A DNA stretch of 64,000 nucleotides from an uncultured Fodinibius sp. (GTDB taxonomy: Bacteria; Bacteroidota; Rhodothermia; Balneolales; Balneolaceae), in the NCBI GenBank assembly GCA_913056235.1, contig CAJXMW010000007.1, positions 1-64,000 of the forward strand, in the 5' to 3' direction. The translations under genes and the position numbers were made by a program. Under the pieces are notes generated by a model, which saw only the letters and a list, made by a program, of their open reading frames with translations, made no database searches and was not told the DNA's origin. Positions 1,845 to 20,815 of the stretch are shown piece by piece (the stretch's first letter is position 1; the number at the start of each line of letters is the position of its first letter).

Positions 1845-3161
1845 ATGGAACCTGTAGAAATTTTAAAAGATTTGTTTTTGTCAGGTTTGGAGGCTTGCTC
1901 ACCGAGTCAGACCGTACAGGCAGTTGCTGCTTTGGAGGGGGCGAAACTCACTATTAAAGAACAGGAATTTGATATCAGCGGGCGGCCAGTATATGTATTG
2001 GCAGTAGGCAAGGCGGCAGTGCCGATGTATAGGGCTATCGAGGATCTGCTGGGAAGTCATATTCATCGTAGTTTGGTGATTACTCCTGATAACCAGAAAG
2101 CTCAGCAATGTAATGCTGATCGAGTCATTATCGCTTCTCATCCTGTACCGGAGAGGCGGAGTTTCAAAGCGGGCCAAAAAGCAGTGCAGTTTTTAAAGGA
2201 AGTGCCCGAAAATGGGCTGCTGCTCAACATGCTGTCCGGGGGAACCTCATCGCTGATGTGTTATCCGGCCGAGGATATTTCTATTGAGGAGCTCAATTCT
2301 GTTTTTGGGTTACTGAATGATTCGGGAGCAACGATCAGCGAGATCAATACCGTACGCAAGCACTGCTCGCAAATCAAAGGGGGGCAGCTACTGCGATATC
2401 TAAATACTGGGGCCGCGATGGTAGATCTGGTGATCTCGGACGTGCCGGATGATGATCTGTCGGTTATTGGCAGTGGTCCTACAACGCCGGATTTGTCAAC
2501 CTACCAGGATGCTTATCACATTTTATTGAAGTATGAATTGTGGCATTGTTTGCCGGTCTCGGTACGGAAGCACATCGAGAAGGGACTCAACGGAGAGCGA
2601 ATGGAAACGCTGAAACCTGGCGAAGATTCACTGAAGCAGCATCAGGCGCATATTATTAGTTCTGCCCGGTTGCTTGCGGATAAGATTTCGGAGCTTGCCT
2701 CAAGAAAAGGGTTGAGCACGCAGGGAGCTGAAGAGGCATTTAACTGCGATGTTGAAAAGGTATCGGAAAAAATAGCGGCGGAAGTTCTAAATGTTGCTGA
2801 TGAAAATATCTCCCAACCTACGGTATTTATCTACTTCGGAGAAAGTACGGTGCAGGTGACCGGTGATGGCAAAGGGGGACGAAATCAGGAGCTGGCTCTG
2901 CGCGGTGCAATGAAAATTGCTGGCCGTCCCAATATTACTTGGCTGAGTGCGGGTACGGACGGTATTGACGGTCCCACAGATGCGGCCGGTGCTATTGTGG
3001 ATGGCACAACGATATCAAAGGCTCGTGAGCAAGGGTTGGATCCCAAAGAATACCTGCGCAATAATGATAGTTACCACTTCCACGAACAGATGGGAACGCT
3101 TGTAAAAACAGGGCCCACCGGCAACAATCTGATGGATCTGGCATTGGTACTTATTGAGTAA
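1845..3161 (+). CDS. Glycerate 2-kinase, GckA/TtuD type (DUF4147 + MOFRL)
   Basis: 438 residues, the normal length for type-II glycerate kinases, which phosphorylate D-glycerate with ATP to 2-phosphoglycerate in the cytoplasm and feed lower glycolysis. The N-terminal Rossmann-like domain shows 'VLAVGKAAVPMY' (about 51-62), 'SGGTSS' at 131-136 and 'ISDVPDDDLSVIGSGPT', all conserved in this family. The C-terminal MOFRL domain carries 'GDGKGGRNQELAL'. The gene stands alone, 63 bases after the exosortase partner; no glyoxylate or tartrate genes are nearby. Phosphoglycerate mutase (gpmI) lies elsewhere in the window and would be needed only if 3-phosphoglycerate were the product. Confidence 0.9.
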   Translation: MEPVEILKDLFLSGLEACSPSQTVQAVAALEGAKLTIKEQEFDISGRPVYVLAVGKAAVPMYRAIEDLLGSHIHRSLVITPDNQKAQQCNADRVIIASHPVPERRSFKAGQKAVQFLKEVPENGLLLNMLSGGTSSLMCYPAEDISIEELNSVFGLLNDSGATISEINTVRKHCSQIKGGQLLRYLNTGAAMVDLVISDVPDDDLSVIGSGPTTPDLSTYQDAYHILLKYELWHCLPVSVRKHIEKGLNGERMETLKPGEDSLKQHQAHIISSARLLADKISELASRKGLSTQGAEEAFNCDVEKVSEKIAAEVLNVADENISQPTVFIYFGESTVQVTGDGKGGRNQELALRGAMKIAGRPNITWLSAGTDGIDGPTDAAGAIVDGTTISKAREQGLDPKEYLRNNDSYHFHEQMGTLVKTGPTGNNLMDLALVLIE

Positions 3162-3410
3162 TTAGGTGAATAGTGAGTAGGTAAATGGTGAATAGTGATT
3201 GAGTGGCAGAGTAATAAAGGCTCAAAGTAACAGAGTCGTAAAGACTAAAGGTTGCTGGCTGATATAAATTACTTGTCACACTGAACTTGCCGTGTCTCAG
3301 GATCTGTGGCAGTTATAGTTACTATTTTGATAGAATGTATTTAGTAGCTATTTGCAACTTGTTTTCTTGAAAACTTAATAACTTAGTTACCTAATAACCC
3401 AATCACTACC
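3155..3410. repeat. Repeat-bracketed intergenic unit without a gene
   Basis: The gap between the glycerate kinase and batA begins with a sense-strand TGATTA-type array (3155-3215: units such as GTAATTA, GGTGAAT, AGTGATTG) and ends with a reverse-complement array (3372-3410: units such as CTTAATA, ACTTAGTT, CCAATCAC). Between them lies a copy of another dispersed sequence at 3274-3310 (TGTCACACTGAACTTG ... CAGGATCTGT). No convincing ORF is present. The arrangement matches the units around the four-helix-bundle gene (4501-4951) and its relic (5725-6007), so this may be an emptied copy. Confidence 0.5.
3274..3310 (+). repeat. Degenerate dispersed 'GTCACACTGA...CAGGATCT' repeat
   Basis: The sequence TGTCACACTGAACTTG followed by GTGTCTCAGGATCTGT resembles short intergenic repeats of the form 'GTCACACTGAGCTTGTCGAAG...CAGGATCT' that I recognise from many environmental genomes. 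Recognition is from memory; only one copy is seen in this window. Confidence 0.35.
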
Positions 3411-3487
3411 TTTAAATACAATTTGGTTTATTTTTGGGAGTTAATTATTCTCACTCTGGTTGAATTTCTCTTTAATTATTGTCGATT

Positions 3488-4510
3488 ATGATTTGGCAGG
3501 ATAGCGTTTATTTGTGGTTTCTGTTGGTAATTCCACTGCTGATAGCAGCTAGTTGGTGGTACAACAAAGAGCTGGATGAAAAACGGAAAAACTTTTTTGG
3601 AGCTGATCTTTTTGAGCGGTTGCGGTCAGGATTTTGGCCGTTGGGCAAACGTATCCGAACCGTCTGTTTATATGGGGGTATTGGGCTGCTTATCATTGCT
3701 GCAGCGGGACCTAAAATTGGTACCGAAGTACGCGAGGTGAAGCGGCAGGGCGTTGACCTGTTGATTGCTCTTGATCTTTCAGCCAGCATGAATGCCGAGG
3801 ATGTAAAACCGAGTCGCTTGGAAAAAGCGAAGTACGAAATATCCAGACTCATAGAACGACTCAACGGCGACCGTGTGGGGCTTATCGTCTATACCGGCGA
3901 AGCCTATTTACAGTCTCCCATGACTCTGGACTATTCGGCCCTGCGCTTGTTTCTGAATATCGCTGAGACCGATCAGATGCCGTCCTCGTCCACGGACTTT
4001 AGTGCCGCCATGGAAACGGCCTCGGAAGCTTTTCAGTCGGGTGAAGAGGAGAGTCAGGATAATAAGGCGGCTAAGGTCTTGATGGTCATATCCGACGGCG
4101 AAAACCACGACAATTCCTATGATGATGCCCTACAGCAGCTTACTGAGCAAAATGTGTCTGTTTATACTCTCGGTATTGGCACCAAATCAGGTTCAAATAT
4201 TCCATTATATGATGACTCCGGCTCGTTGATGGGCTATAAACGCAATGAGCAAGGCCAGATTATCACTACGAAATTGGAGCCGCAGGTACTGCGCAATATT
4301 GCCGAACAGGGAGGGGGTGAGTACTATGAAATTCGAAGCGGCGGTTCGGGTATCGATGCTTTCCTAGGCCGTTTGGATGAGCTCCAGCAGGGAGAATTTG
4401 CCAGCCAGGAATACGCAGACTTCAAAAATCAGTACCAGTGGTTAGCTGGTTTTGGCCTCCTTTTTCTGTTGATTGGGATGATTTTTCCTGAATTTAAATT
4501 GAGTGATTAA
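3488..4510 (+). CDS. batA: BatA-like von Willebrand factor A membrane protein
   Basis: About 340 residues. Two N-terminal hydrophobic segments (about 9-24 and 59-75) precede a VWA domain with the metal-binding MIDAS motif DLSAS at about 96-100 and later conserved Thr and Asp residues (MVISDGE). A third membrane segment lies at the C-terminus. This is the BatA/BatB architecture of the Bacteroides aerotolerance locus, whose function is thought to concern envelope stress. An earlier TTG at 3479 exists, but ATG 3488 gives the normal family N-terminus. Its usual partner MoxR is 29 kb away at 32.3-33.3 kb, and DUF58 and tetratricopeptide Bat proteins are absent here, so the locus is split in this organism. 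BatA versus BatB cannot be separated with certainty. Confidence 0.82.
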   Translation: MIWQDSVYLWFLLVIPLLIAASWWYNKELDEKRKNFFGADLFERLRSGFWPLGKRIRTVCLYGGIGLLIIAAAGPKIGTEVREVKRQGVDLLIALDLSASMNAEDVKPSRLEKAKYEISRLIERLNGDRVGLIVYTGEAYLQSPMTLDYSALRLFLNIAETDQMPSSSTDFSAAMETASEAFQSGEEESQDNKAAKVLMVISDGENHDNSYDDALQQLTEQNVSVYTLGIGTKSGSNIPLYDDSGSLMGYKRNEQGQIITTKLEPQVLRNIAEQGGGEYYEIRSGGSGIDAFLGRLDELQQGEFASQEYADFKNQYQWLAGFGLLFLLIGMIFPEFKLSD

Positions 4511-4541
4511 GAGATTAGGCTATAAAGTGATAAAGTTAATC
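4501..4541 (+). repeat. Left (sense) TGATTA-type repeat of the four-helix-bundle cassette
   Basis: Units GTGATTA / AGAGATTAG / AAGTGATA / AAGTTAATC begin within the last codons of batA and end just before the four-helix-bundle gene. The opposite-oriented partner is at 4906-4951. Confidence 0.55.
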
Positions 4542-4554
4542 AAGAGAGCTTATT

Positions 4555-4905
4555 ATGCGACCACATTACAAACTGGATGCTTGGAAAAATTCAATGGATT
4601 TGGTGGATGAGATATATCAAATTACACGTGAATTTCCGCCTGAAGAAAAGTTTGGGTTGACTTCTCAAATGAGACGAGCAGCAATTTCGATTCCAAGTAA
4701 CTTGGCTGAAGGAGCAGCAAGAAAAGGGCAGGCAGAATTTGCCAATTTTATAAATATAGCGAAAGGATCACTCAGTGAACTAGAAACTCAGCTTATTATT
4801 TCAAAGCGTCAGAACTATATTAATGATATATCTGATTTGGTTGACTTGATTGGTAAAATAGCAAGTCAATTGTCAGGTTTGTATAAATATATAAAGTCTA
4901 AATAG
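4555..4905 (+). CDS. Four-helix-bundle protein (S23 / 23S rRNA intervening-sequence protein family)
   Basis: 116 residues, standard length. Family hallmarks are visible: an N-terminal 'LDAW' (7-10), 'LTSQMRRAAISIPSN' (35-49), 'AEGAAR' (51-56), 'FANFINIAKGSLSELETQL' (62-80). These proteins form pentameric four-helix bundles, are best known from intervening sequences inside 23S rRNA genes of some bacteria, and are related to the Avd accessory protein of diversity-generating retroelements. No rRNA gene or reverse transcriptase is present here. The gene sits between inverted arrays of short degenerate repeats (4501-4541 and 4906-4951), and a relic of its 5' end lies 1.2 kb downstream, which suggests a small mobile or formerly mobile cassette. 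Its molecular role is unknown. Confidence 0.88.
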   Translation: MRPHYKLDAWKNSMDLVDEIYQITREFPPEEKFGLTSQMRRAAISIPSNLAEGAARKGQAEFANFINIAKGSLSELETQLIISKRQNYINDISDLVDLIGKIASQLSGLYKYIKSK

Positions 4906-4951
4906 GGTAATTCAGTACCTAATCACTTCATTACTTAATCACCTAAATAAC
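4906..4951 (-). repeat. Right (reverse) TGATTA-type repeat of the four-helix-bundle cassette
   Basis: Units CCTAATCAC / TTCATTACTTAATCAC / CTAAATAAC are the reverse complement of the pattern at 4501-4541. The array starts right after the stop codon of the four-helix-bundle gene and ends at the start codon of the HAD gene. Confidence 0.55.
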
Positions 4952-4956
4952 TCTTG

Positions 4957-5718
4957 ATGATTAAACTTTTTATTACAGATATTGACGGTTGTTTGAGCAG
5001 ACCTTTTAAAACGCCTGACTGGGATCTGCTTTCTCAGCTTCGGCGCCTCAACGAGCAAAGTAGTAATGATATGGCCGTGCCGCCGTTGTCGATCTGTTCC
5101 GGACGTCCCTTCCCGTATGTTGAGGCGGTAGCTCAGTGGCTGGGCGTGGATCAGCCGGTTGTATTTGAAAGTGCGGGCATCTACGAGCTGGAGACCAATA
5201 AGATCGATTTTTTGCCGGCTTTTGACGATGAGGCAGAGTTGCAGGTTGAAGAGCTAAAAAGTTGGTTACGGGAGCAAATTGTCCCCGATTATCCGGGATT
5301 AATTATCGAGTTTACTAAGCGTATGGATGCTGGCGTTATTCATCTGGATAGTGATGTTATTGATGAACTGTATCCCAAAGTGGTGGAGCATGTAACAGAG
5401 CATTATCCACGTTTTGAAGTACATTATACCGATGTTTCAATTAATATAATCTTAGCAAAAAATAATAAACGGAATGGTATTTTAGAGCTCTGTGAAGTGC
5501 TCGATCTGGATCCACAGGAGGTGGCATATATAGGGGATAGTGGGGGCGATATTCCGGGATTCAAAATCGTGGGACGATCTTTTGCCCCATCTAATGCTGC
5601 CGAAGCGGTTCAAGATGAAGCTGATATAGTGGTAGAAGGGAAGGTCACCGAAGCGGTACTGATGGCTTATCGTCAGGTCATTCAAGACAATCGCAAGACG
5701 CTGGCCGAAGCAAGCTAG
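4957..5718 (+). CDS. HAD-superfamily hydrolase (Cof/IIB-type phosphatase)
   Basis: About 253 residues. Motif I is 'FITDIDGC' with the nucleophile and acid-base Asp at positions 8 and 10; motif II is 'SICSGRP'; a Lys in 'AKNNKRNG' and motif IV 'YIGDSGGDIP' (about 190) follow. The long cap between motifs II and III is the IIB type found in sugar-phosphate and phosphoglycolate phosphatases. The C-terminus has the usual 'ADIVVEGKVTEAVLMA'. A TTG at 4954 directly precedes ATG 4957; the ATG is preferred. The substrate cannot be read from the sequence; the glycerate kinase nearby makes a glycolate/glycerate link possible but unproven. Confidence 0.8.
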   Translation: MIKLFITDIDGCLSRPFKTPDWDLLSQLRRLNEQSSNDMAVPPLSICSGRPFPYVEAVAQWLGVDQPVVFESAGIYELETNKIDFLPAFDDEAELQVEELKSWLREQIVPDYPGLIIEFTKRMDAGVIHLDSDVIDELYPKVVEHVTEHYPRFEVHYTDVSINIILAKNNKRNGILELCEVLDLDPQEVAYIGDSGGDIPGFKIVGRSFAPSNAAEAVQDEADIVVEGKVTEAVLMAYRQVIQDNRKTLAEAS

Positions 5719-5724
5719 CGTTTT

Positions 5725-6007
5725 GTGAATGGTTATTGAGTAATTAGATGATTACGTAATTCAACTTTAATTAAATCAAGGGAGATCTTTAATGACCGCA
5801 TTACAAACTGGACGCTTGGACTACCGAGCAGTTGTATGCATGGGAGACTACAACCATACCCTGAACCAGAATGAAGAGGCTCGTCAAACATAAAAAACCT
5901 AGTATAAAAGGTTCCGGCTGTTTGAGGGAGTCTTAGCTATTACAATTTATAGCTCTTAATTACTTAATCACTTTGTCTCTCAGTCACCTAATTACTTAGT
6001 CACTTCA
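5725..6007. repeat. Internally deleted four-helix-bundle cassette (relic)
   Basis: A sense TGATTA-type array (5725-5763) and a reverse array (5955-6007) bracket about 190 bases. Just inside the left array the text closely repeats the start of the intact four-helix-bundle gene: an upstream 'ATCAAG(A/G)GAG' and then, after the ATG, 'CATTACAAACTGGA(T/C)GCTTGGA' (intact copy near 4537-4583, relic near 5774-5820). After that point the two copies no longer match, and the relic has lost two bases near its ATG and so is out of frame. This is a decayed, shortened copy of the same cassette. Confidence 0.6.
5792..5820 (+). pseudogene. 5' fragment of a second four-helix-bundle protein gene
   Basis: About 29 bases from an ATG at 5792 match the first codons of the gene at 4555 with a few substitutions and a two-base deletion after the ATG. 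The resulting frame encodes only a short unrelated peptide ending at a TAA near 5890, so it is not a functional gene. Confidence 0.6.
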
Positions 6008-20072: not shown

Positions 20073-20145
20073 TACCGCGTACGGGATTCGAACCCGTGCT
20101 ACTGCCGTGAAAGGGCAGCGTCCTAAACCCCTAGACGAACGCGGC
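20073..20145 (-). tRNA. tRNA-Glu(UUC), copy 1
   Basis: On the minus strand a 73-base cloverleaf: acceptor GCCGCGT / ACGCGGT, anticodon stem CTGCC/GGCAG with loop CTTTCAC (anticodon TTC = Glu), and T-loop GTTCGAATC. This copy happens to be followed by genomic CCA (complement of 20070-20072); the other Glu copy is not. It is the last tRNA of the cluster, and the terminator starts a few bases downstream. Confidence 0.95.
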
Positions 20146-20256
20146 ATAAATCAATAAAAAAGCTTTACCGAACCAACGTTCAGCAAAGCTGAAAATCAAG
20201 GCTTCAAGGATAAGATTTTTACCTTTTCTACACAACTTGATTTCCCGAAAAATATG

Positions 20257-20331
20257 GGAGCCCGATGGGATTTGAACCCACGGCCTCCAGGGCCACAACC
20301 TGGCGCTCTAACCAGCTGAGCTACGAGCTCC
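20257..20331 (-). tRNA. tRNA-His(GUG)
   Basis: 75 bases on the minus strand. The anticodon stem CCAGG/CCTGG encloses TTGTGGC (anticodon GTG = His). The acceptor has the extra 5' G (G-1) opposite C73 that is typical of tRNA-His; seven further pairs GAGCTCG/CGGGCTC include one G-T. The D and T arms are standard. CCA is not encoded. Confidence 0.95.
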
Positions 20332-20413
20332 ATTTATTGGGAAGTAAAATACGAAGATCGAAGTTCAAAAGAGAATCAATCATCTCCATATGATGCTTCC
20401 TGCAAATACCAAG

Positions 20414-20486
20414 TACCGCGTACGGGATTCGAACCCGTGCTACTGCCGTGAAAGGGCAGCGTCCTAAACCCCTAGACGAACGCGGC
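20414..20486 (-). tRNA. tRNA-Glu(UUC), copy 2
   Basis: 73-base tRNA identical to the copy at 20073-20145 in every position, including the anticodon loop. The flanks also agree for several bases on the 5' side (GCGGCATAAA then a one-base difference). This points to a recent local duplication. CCA is not encoded here (the following bases are CTT). Confidence 0.95.
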
Positions 20487-20509
20487 ATAAAATCAATAAG
20501 TCAACGAAG

Positions 20510-20580
20510 AGGCGACGGGCGGACTCGAACCGCCGTAGGAGGTTTTGCAGACCTCTGCCTAACCACTCGGCCACGTCGCC
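20510..20580 (-). tRNA. tRNA-Cys(GCA)
   Basis: 71 bases, acceptor GGCGACG/CGTCGCC, U73 discriminator as expected for Cys, anticodon loop CTGCAAA within GAGGT/ACCTC (anticodon GCA = Cys). Part of the minus-strand cluster. Confidence 0.95.
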
Positions 20581-20597
20581 ATAAAAGGTCATTCCAG

Positions 20598-20671
20598 TAC
20601 GCCCGACAGGACTCGAACCTGTAACCTACTCCTTAGAAGGGAGTTGCTCTATCCAGTTGAGCTACGGGCGC
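20598..20671 (-). tRNA. tRNA-Arg(UCU)
   Basis: 74 bases, acceptor GCGCCCG/CGGGCGT with a G-T first pair, anticodon loop CTTCTAA within ACTCC/GGAGT (anticodon TCT = Arg). CCA is not encoded. Confidence 0.95.
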
Positions 20672-20741
20672 CTAAACTCAAAAGGCAAATTGCAAATTAG
20701 ACCCTGATTAAAAATTGACTGCAATTTGAAATTTATGATTG

Positions 20742-20815
20742 TCGGGGAGACTGGATTTGAACCAGCGACCCTTCGCTCCCAAAGCGAATGCGCTACCGGA
20801 CTGCGCTACTCCCCG
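20742..20815 (-). tRNA. tRNA-Pro(UGG)
   Basis: 74 bases, acceptor CGGGGAG/CTCCCCG, anticodon loop TTTGGGA within TTCGC/GCGAA (anticodon TGG = Pro). It is the first tRNA of the minus-strand cluster, about 100 bases downstream of a promoter candidate. Confidence 0.95.

Follow-up and report, generated by a model that had tools for sequence, protein, structure and literature searches.

Our analysis indicates that the S23 gene of the window (the whole stretch of 64,000 nucleotides that was analysed) is the single gene of a cassette, lying between two inward-facing arms built from a 7-8 nt word, and we read this cassette as a minimal element whose arms would fold an RNA stem around the gene, a reading to which we assign a probability of roughly 0.58. 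The S23 cassette is likely a mobile unit. Until now S23 genes have been described as riding in rRNA intervening sequences or as isolated genes to which no function is assigned; should they prove to be what a word-armed cassette carries, ordinary laboratory bacteria would allow a test of the long-standing proposal that the intervening sequence is a mobile element with an ORF serving its mobility. The features concerned, in window coordinates, are the following:

563-593, + strand: lone AGTGATTA-word array, its facing partner not seen at the threshold of the pattern
3151-3410, strand not applicable: facing word arrays without S23, ahead of the VWA gene
3479-4510, + strand: VWA-domain (BatA/BatB-like) gene, the upstream operon neighbour
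4496-4541, + strand: 5' arm of degenerate 8-nt AGTGATTA-type words (words from about 4500)
4555-4905, + strand: S23 / 23S_rRNA_IVP four-helix-bundle gene, 116 aa, of the MRPHYKLDAW lineage
4906-4951, - strand: 3' arm, the words of the 5' arm on the opposite strand (words from 4911), stopping right before the HAD gene
4954-5718, + strand: HAD-family phosphatase gene, the downstream operon neighbour, whose orthologs mark the site in 12 genomes of the genus
5733-6007, strand not applicable: decayed cassette, with a 5' arm at about 5733-5754, a remnant of the S23 start at 5794-5820 and a 3' arm at about 5956-6007

The first-pass annotation of this DNA, made from the letters alone, had described an S23/IVP-type gene at 4555-4905 between inward-facing word arrays, and both parts of that description hold. 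In profile searches the protein matched PF05635 (E 8e-37) and TIGR02436 (E 4e-36), its PF05635 score of 126.1 bits against a curated cut-off of 33.8 places it in the family, and the PDB entry 2gsc is a relative by sequence match (E 1.6e-31). The VWA, S23 and HAD genes are all on the + strand, and the first word of the 5' arm forms the last codons and the stop codon of the VWA gene. Inverted local alignment of 4496-4554 with 4906-4953 gave a score of 32, which only 1 of 1000 mononucleotide shuffles reached. A "deleted" copy that the same annotation had placed at 5725-6007 is borne out by a 27-nt stretch that matches the beginning of the S23 gene at 93% identity, and by arms whose score was reached in 10 of 1000 shuffles. 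The "empty" copy reported at 3155-3410 does have facing arrays, but with weaker statistical support, and because 44 of 1000 shuffles score as high, the pair at 3151-3410 is only suggestive as a cassette copy. Within the whole window Rfam at gathering thresholds detected six tRNAs but not a single rRNA, which rules out an rRNA insert at this site and agrees with the earlier statement that no rRNA gene lies nearby; likewise, no transposase adjoins the cassette among the flanking genes scanned. The six tRNA genes form a cluster on the - strand at 20073-20815.

Facing arms of 7-8 nt words are widespread at S23 genes, being clear in a majority of the loci and not in all. The locus set consisted of 7 loci from the window's own genome (G000), 30 from the same genus among the matches listed, and 80 GTDB loci, the last being the best 80 of 158 relatives of the window S23, so that they are biased toward it by the way they were picked and include related, non-independent loci. 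For the 114 of 117 loci with enough flank, drawn from many phyla, the inverted score of the 150-nt flanks had a median of 36, compared with 20 for the controls, 185 genes neighbouring S23 in these loci (Mann-Whitney p 3e-26); 75 of the 114 lay above the 95th percentile of these control genes, and about a third fell short of this arm threshold. Against a control made of mismatched S23 pairs, which are able to share words, the 95th percentile was exceeded at 42/77 GTDB loci, 16/30 loci of the genus and 5/7 loci of the window's genome. With 28 further loci from the phylum added, 142 of 145 had 120 nt on both sides, and the computed RNA duplex energy was -51.3 kcal/mol for a locus's own flanks against -40.3 kcal/mol for GC-matched foreign flanks, the own duplex being better than 90% of the foreign ones at 78 of the 142. 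Shuffles, control genes and foreign-flank duplexes rule out chance or artefact as the source of the arms. The base composition is also skewed, with G exceeding C in the 5' flank at 122 of the 142 loci, C exceeding G in the 3' flank at 116, and both at 101, so the arms tend toward a fixed sense relative to the S23 gene.

A search of the window's genome (3.97 Mb in 9 contigs, the window being on contig C7) for the repeat words, which the first-pass annotation had called for, returned 21 matches with up to 3 mismatches and 1 for the backward control, and these were grouped by eye into ten places. Arrays also occur unpaired, since six of the ten places (C3:22398, C3:27915, C3:32478, C5:168667, C6:53142 and C7:563) show one orientation only, at a threshold where the pattern can overlook decayed partner arms and also misses the 5' arm at 5733. 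That annotation had held that arrays found equally often without orientation pairing would count against a cassette, and this expectation came true in part, through these unpaired arrays and through the S23-less arms common at groES/groEL of another genus (see below). A compact AGTGATTA-word hairpin with facing arrays 3 nt apart and no S23 was seen right after a gene at C1:1073465-1073528 (L326). The genome has 13 PF05635 matches, several of them broken and two being pieces of one gene; most S23 copies are flanked by facing short words (by eye), and these words differ from copy to copy. One of the 13 resembles the Avd gene found in diversity-generating retroelements, and at C5:255052-256514 (L045) an Avd-like gene, a reverse transcriptase and template/variable-like repeats (by eye) make up an apparent element of this kind.

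Comparison of orthologous sites showed that the cassette is present in some relatives and absent in others. At the VWA/HAD junction S23 is present in 6 of the 12 genomes of the genus and belongs to two lineages, one in G000, G003 and G007 and the other in G009 and G002, with a decayed copy in G004. All five intact copies lie between arrays (by eye), so the outcome that had been named as fatal to the cassette idea, an S23 gene at this locus in relatives without arrays, did not arise. As for the sites without S23, five of the six show no array by eye (G001, G006, G008, G010 and G011, with junctions of 46-80 nt), and G005 retains an arm residue. No target duplication was found at the cassette ends at this site, where the closest pair of sequences (85.6% identical) is too distant for base-level junctions, and neither an insertion or transposition event nor, among the flanking genes scanned, a recombinase for the cassette was found. 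The proposal of a tiny non-autonomous mobile element is upheld as far as arms and S23 gene form a recurring unit, but its movement, target duplication and mobilising enzyme were not seen.

The groES|groEL junction of one dense genus, which we infer to be Chryseobacterium, gave a larger sample, with 108 of 110 fetched junctions readable. S23 genes of three types occupied 52 of them (the ORF reaches 110 aa or more in 46) and 56 had none; of the latter, 54 were gaps of 80-119 nt. Arms without S23 are common here, since 39 of these 54 short gaps score as inverted arrays beyond the 95th percentile of shuffles and represent at least three word families. Where it was measured, purifying selection on S23 is strong, with dN/dS of 0.068 for type A, 0.092 for type B and 0.076 for type C (379, 65 and 3 pairs; Nei-Gojobori script, dS 0.1-1.5). 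In the consensus stems 90-97% of cells are paired, and two-sided, compensatory changes were found at 0-4 pairs only. Within an S23 type the 5' arm scored no better with its own 3' arm than with that of another species (31.1 vs 30.4 in type A, 31.7 vs 32.9 in type B), so that coevolution of the two arms at the species level was not seen. The S23 state was unlinked to the groES/groEL tree (61 changes at 107 sites against 64.3 when shuffled), which may reflect turnover, exchange of alleles or poor resolution, and from which we take no rate.

The words vary between loci and tend to track the S23 lineage. Among 81 loci with clear arms, mean word similarity (5-mer cosine, pairs at different sites) rose with S23 identity from 0.066 at 35-45% (n=1483) and 0.094 at 45-55% (n=814) to 0.210 at 55-70% (n=102) and 0.478 above 70% (n=6), with a Mantel r of 0.25 and a p of 2e-4, also when permuting within GC and genus strata. 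Pairs at the same site with 35-55% identity had low word cosines (0.08 and 0.16; n=6 and 23). Across phyla, in a comparison of 66 Bacteroidota with 43 other loci whose pairs are non-independent, words were shared by 15 of 50 pairs at 52% identity or more, 8 of 369 at 45-52% and 7 of 2419 below 45% (permutation p 2e-4). This match rests mostly on the window's own lineage; over all 66 loci, the closest protein from another phylum had a word match modestly above chance (median rank 0.33, 0.5 expected). The best relatives of the window S23 outside its genus, among the matches listed, are from Burkholderiales at 61-65% identity, and one word is common to the VWA/HAD site of G000, G003 and G007 and to the rfbB/rfbA site of five Burkholderiales loci (L106, L107, L108, L112 and L115). 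The same word at another operon in another phylum suggests that gene and arms travel together, and in the window's lineage the two appear to have been transferred as one unit. The association of word with lineage also gives a direct prediction of what the S23 protein binds.

S23 cassettes sit inside operons, mostly in codirection with the host genes (73/83). This count comes from 97 loci, not collapsed by site, that have 55% GC or less and a called gene no further than 400 nt away on both sides; of these, 73 were +S+, 10 -S-, 11 +S- and 3 -S+; codirection is not evident in the window's genome alone, with three +S+, two -S- and two +S-. The junctions include groES|groEL, dnaK|dnaJ and rfbB|rfbA, named by eye (the simple gene caller makes mistakes where GC is high), and the annotated plasmid junctions cas10|cmr3 and cas6|cas4. 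Of 392 genomes sampled from the window's phylum, 226 have S23 matches, as do 26 of 72,556 plasmid records (E 1e-8). Four of the six plasmid loci fetched were above the arm threshold, L383 was below it, and the repeats at L387 are direct rather than facing. CRISPR operons of cyanobacterial plasmids hold S23 genes at L384, L386 and L387 (cas10|S23|cmr3, cas6|S23|cas4). A phage origin was ruled out, as neither S23 nor GxxExxY genes matched any of 50,697 phage records at E 1e-5, and a search with PADLOC for a defence system was without match.

A promoter-like motif precedes many S23 genes of the window's family. TGTAA[AG] followed at 18-24 nt by TTAC or ATAC, a pattern spotted by eye and counted on the same loci, is found upstream of 16 of 46 such genes (7 from the window's genome, 30 from the genus and 9 others), of 4 of 1012 background windows and of none of 99 other S23 loci. 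In its longer form, TGTAAGGA-N14-GGTCTTACT with up to 3 mismatches, there are 31 sites in G000 and 34 in a second genome, G014, against 7 and 17 for the backward control, and with the spacing two longer the counts were 5 vs 13 and 7 vs 11, respectively. Six of the 13 S23 matches in G000 are preceded by such a site; the window copy has none and is probably read from its operon. A Pfam scan of 20 proteins downstream of sites (from loci L333-L344 in G000 and L358-L377 in G014) found RadC, a helix-hairpin-helix protein, a RecN-like ATPase, a ComM-like Mg-chelatase, PDDEXK_3 twice, a Y1 transposase, a tyrosine recombinase, TPR and one family-less protein in G000, and RecA, RecQ, DHH (RecJ-like), SMC_N (RecF-like), GIY-YIG, a Y1 transposase, PDDEXK_3, S23 and TPR in G014, together with a HU-like protein below the Pfam cut-off; names that go beyond the Pfam names, such as RecJ-like and RecF-like, are our assumption. 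We infer that the motif would be an ECF-type promoter for a regulon of recombination or DNA uptake to which mobile-element genes also belong. Its presence ahead of both S23 and recombination genes suggests that they are expressed together, with recombination or DNA uptake, and points to when these genes act.

The four-helix-bundle gene had been thought to be the only gene of such elements; this holds in the window, but similar short-word repeats flank some GxxExxY (PDDEXK_3) genes. In a small sample of 10 PDDEXK_3/GxxExxY loci (4 from the family, 6 from plasmids), judged by the S23 control threshold of 31.6 rather than by a control set of their own, 6 were above the threshold and L334, L381, L388 and L389 below. 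Facing arms are present at L378, L379, L333 and L363, and L338 and L380 have a word hairpin on each side. The repeats are of the CACAGAG/CGCAGAG or CGCAGAT type, and several of these loci lie inside operons, like the S23 cassettes. We consider it a tentative possibility that S23 and GxxExxY cassettes form one unrecognised class of minimal mobile elements, in which a single small gene between inverted word arrays would have those arrays read by its protein, invade operons as an RNA-level insert and ride the recombination or uptake regulon of the host, with rRNA intervening sequences as the special case of landing in rRNA.

On our reading of the window cassette as a minimal element, the two arms would pair in the operon transcript into an extended, imperfect stem whose loop contains the S23 message. 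Each word of one arm can pair with every word of the other, so such a stem should tolerate words being gained or lost. By analogy with the S23-bearing intervening sequences of 23S rRNA, the stem would be cut by RNase III, and the host genes on both sides would then remain usable. The S23 protein, which is Avd-like, may bind the words, a putative role, and the unit would spread by horizontal transfer and recombination; the gene would afterwards decay, with the arms left in place. Many copies of the window's family would be expressed with recombination or DNA uptake from their own promoter-like site. Our odds for this reading were lowered slightly because two of the GxxExxY cases have a hairpin on each side and because codirection is not evident in the window's genome.

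The frequent arms without S23 could also mean that the arms belong to the host or are repeats in their own right, forming local hairpins, and that S23 merely inserts between pre-existing arrays. This explanation, which we regard as unlikely, draws on the groES/groEL sites of the dense genus, where half of the junctions (54/108) are short gaps lacking S23 and 39 of these gaps are inverted arrays of at least three word families, on the single arrays and the compact same-word hairpin elsewhere in the window's genome, and on the flank in G009, which by eye looks nested, words of one type lying outside those of the other. It does not sit well with the tendency of the word to track the S23 lineage across sites, nor with the lack of an array by eye at five of the six S23-less sites of the window's genus; moreover, the S23 gene at L165, a locus whose arm score is low, is adjoined by TTAGATG words similar to the words of type D, a groESL type without S23. 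It seems rather unlikely to us that S23 instead serves the host in DNA recombination or repair, with the arms as its own operator or RNA sites, and moves only as ordinary genes do. A dN/dS of 0.07-0.09 would suit such a gene, as would the motif shared by 6 of 13 S23 matches in G000 with recA, recQ, radC and RecF-/RecJ-like genes, whereas its patchy presence at the VWA/HAD site, the 1 to 15 S23 matches per genome in one genus, several of them broken, the insertion into unrelated operons and into rRNA (the latter in the account of the Coxiella intervening sequence in PMC4990558) and the listed Burkholderiales relatives as the best outside the genus all argue against it.

We consider it quite unlikely that the cassette belongs to the MITE- or REPIN-type DNA elements and is mobilised in trans by a Y1 (RAYT) transposase or a GxxExxY nuclease. 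Y1-transposase genes with the same upstream motif exist in both genomes tested (G000 and G014), some GxxExxY genes lie between similar repeats, and the S23-less arm pairs resemble miniature derivatives. Nevertheless, the words differ between cassettes, so that a single sequence-specific transposase would hardly serve all of them, the repeat next to the Y1 gene at L342 is a different palindrome, and the arms have a strand sense fixed relative to the gene, which a DNA inverted repeat does not need. MITEs and REPINs with RAYT are short inverted repeats with gene-less derivatives in intergenic positions, and the cassettes resemble them in all three respects; unlike them, the cassettes have arms that are arrays of short words differing by locus, and a gene of their own that is not a transposase.

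The Avd proteins of diversity-generating retroelements belong to a related family (PHROG Avd, E 1.5e-6; bAvd, E 1.8e-4, below its cut-off). In contrast to those retroelements, no reverse transcriptase lies next to the window S23, the reverse transcriptase matches of its genome being on contigs C5 and C1 and the window on C7. A retroelement with its own reverse transcriptase is not supported, as 4 of the 12 genomes of the genus have S23 matches and no reverse transcriptase match at E 0.001. Heptamer arrays of TAACTGA are described in PMC4679880 from Beggiatoaceae, Cyanobacteria and Bacteroidetes, mostly as direct repeats upstream of genes; as it describes them, they share with the cassette arms an intergenic position, and the likeness extends to tandem 7-nt words in distant phyla. 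The main text of that paper has no match to "S23", "23S", "four helix" or "intervening". S23 genes are named in PMC8700078, PMC10053308, PMC11270868 and PMC5524665, whose S23 passages do not mention arms, and PMC11270868 places S23 genes in 16S and 23S rRNA inserts of CPR bacteria. Among the matches listed in the open-licence PMC literature, there was no paper describing word arms at S23 genes that lie outside rRNA.

Among the closest known systems is the S23-encoding intervening sequence of 23S rRNA. As PMC4990558 presents it for Coxiella, the ends of this sequence are complementary, RNase III cuts lie in the stem, and the loop contains an S23 ORF preceded by tandem heptamers. The authors suggest in PMC4990558 that the Coxiella S23 protein is not made and that its gene is decaying; in contrast, the S23 genes at groES|groEL studied here are under purifying selection. 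Unlike the rRNA sequences, the window cassette, known here from sequence, lies between protein genes of an operon and has word arrays for both arms. Nonetheless, it has the complementary ends around an S23 ORF that mark an intervening sequence (1 of 1000 shuffles), and the cassettes have in common with the intervening sequences of the Coxiella and Leptospira type, as outlined in PMC4990558, the protein family, a stem with the ORF in its loop, heptamers and a sporadic distribution.
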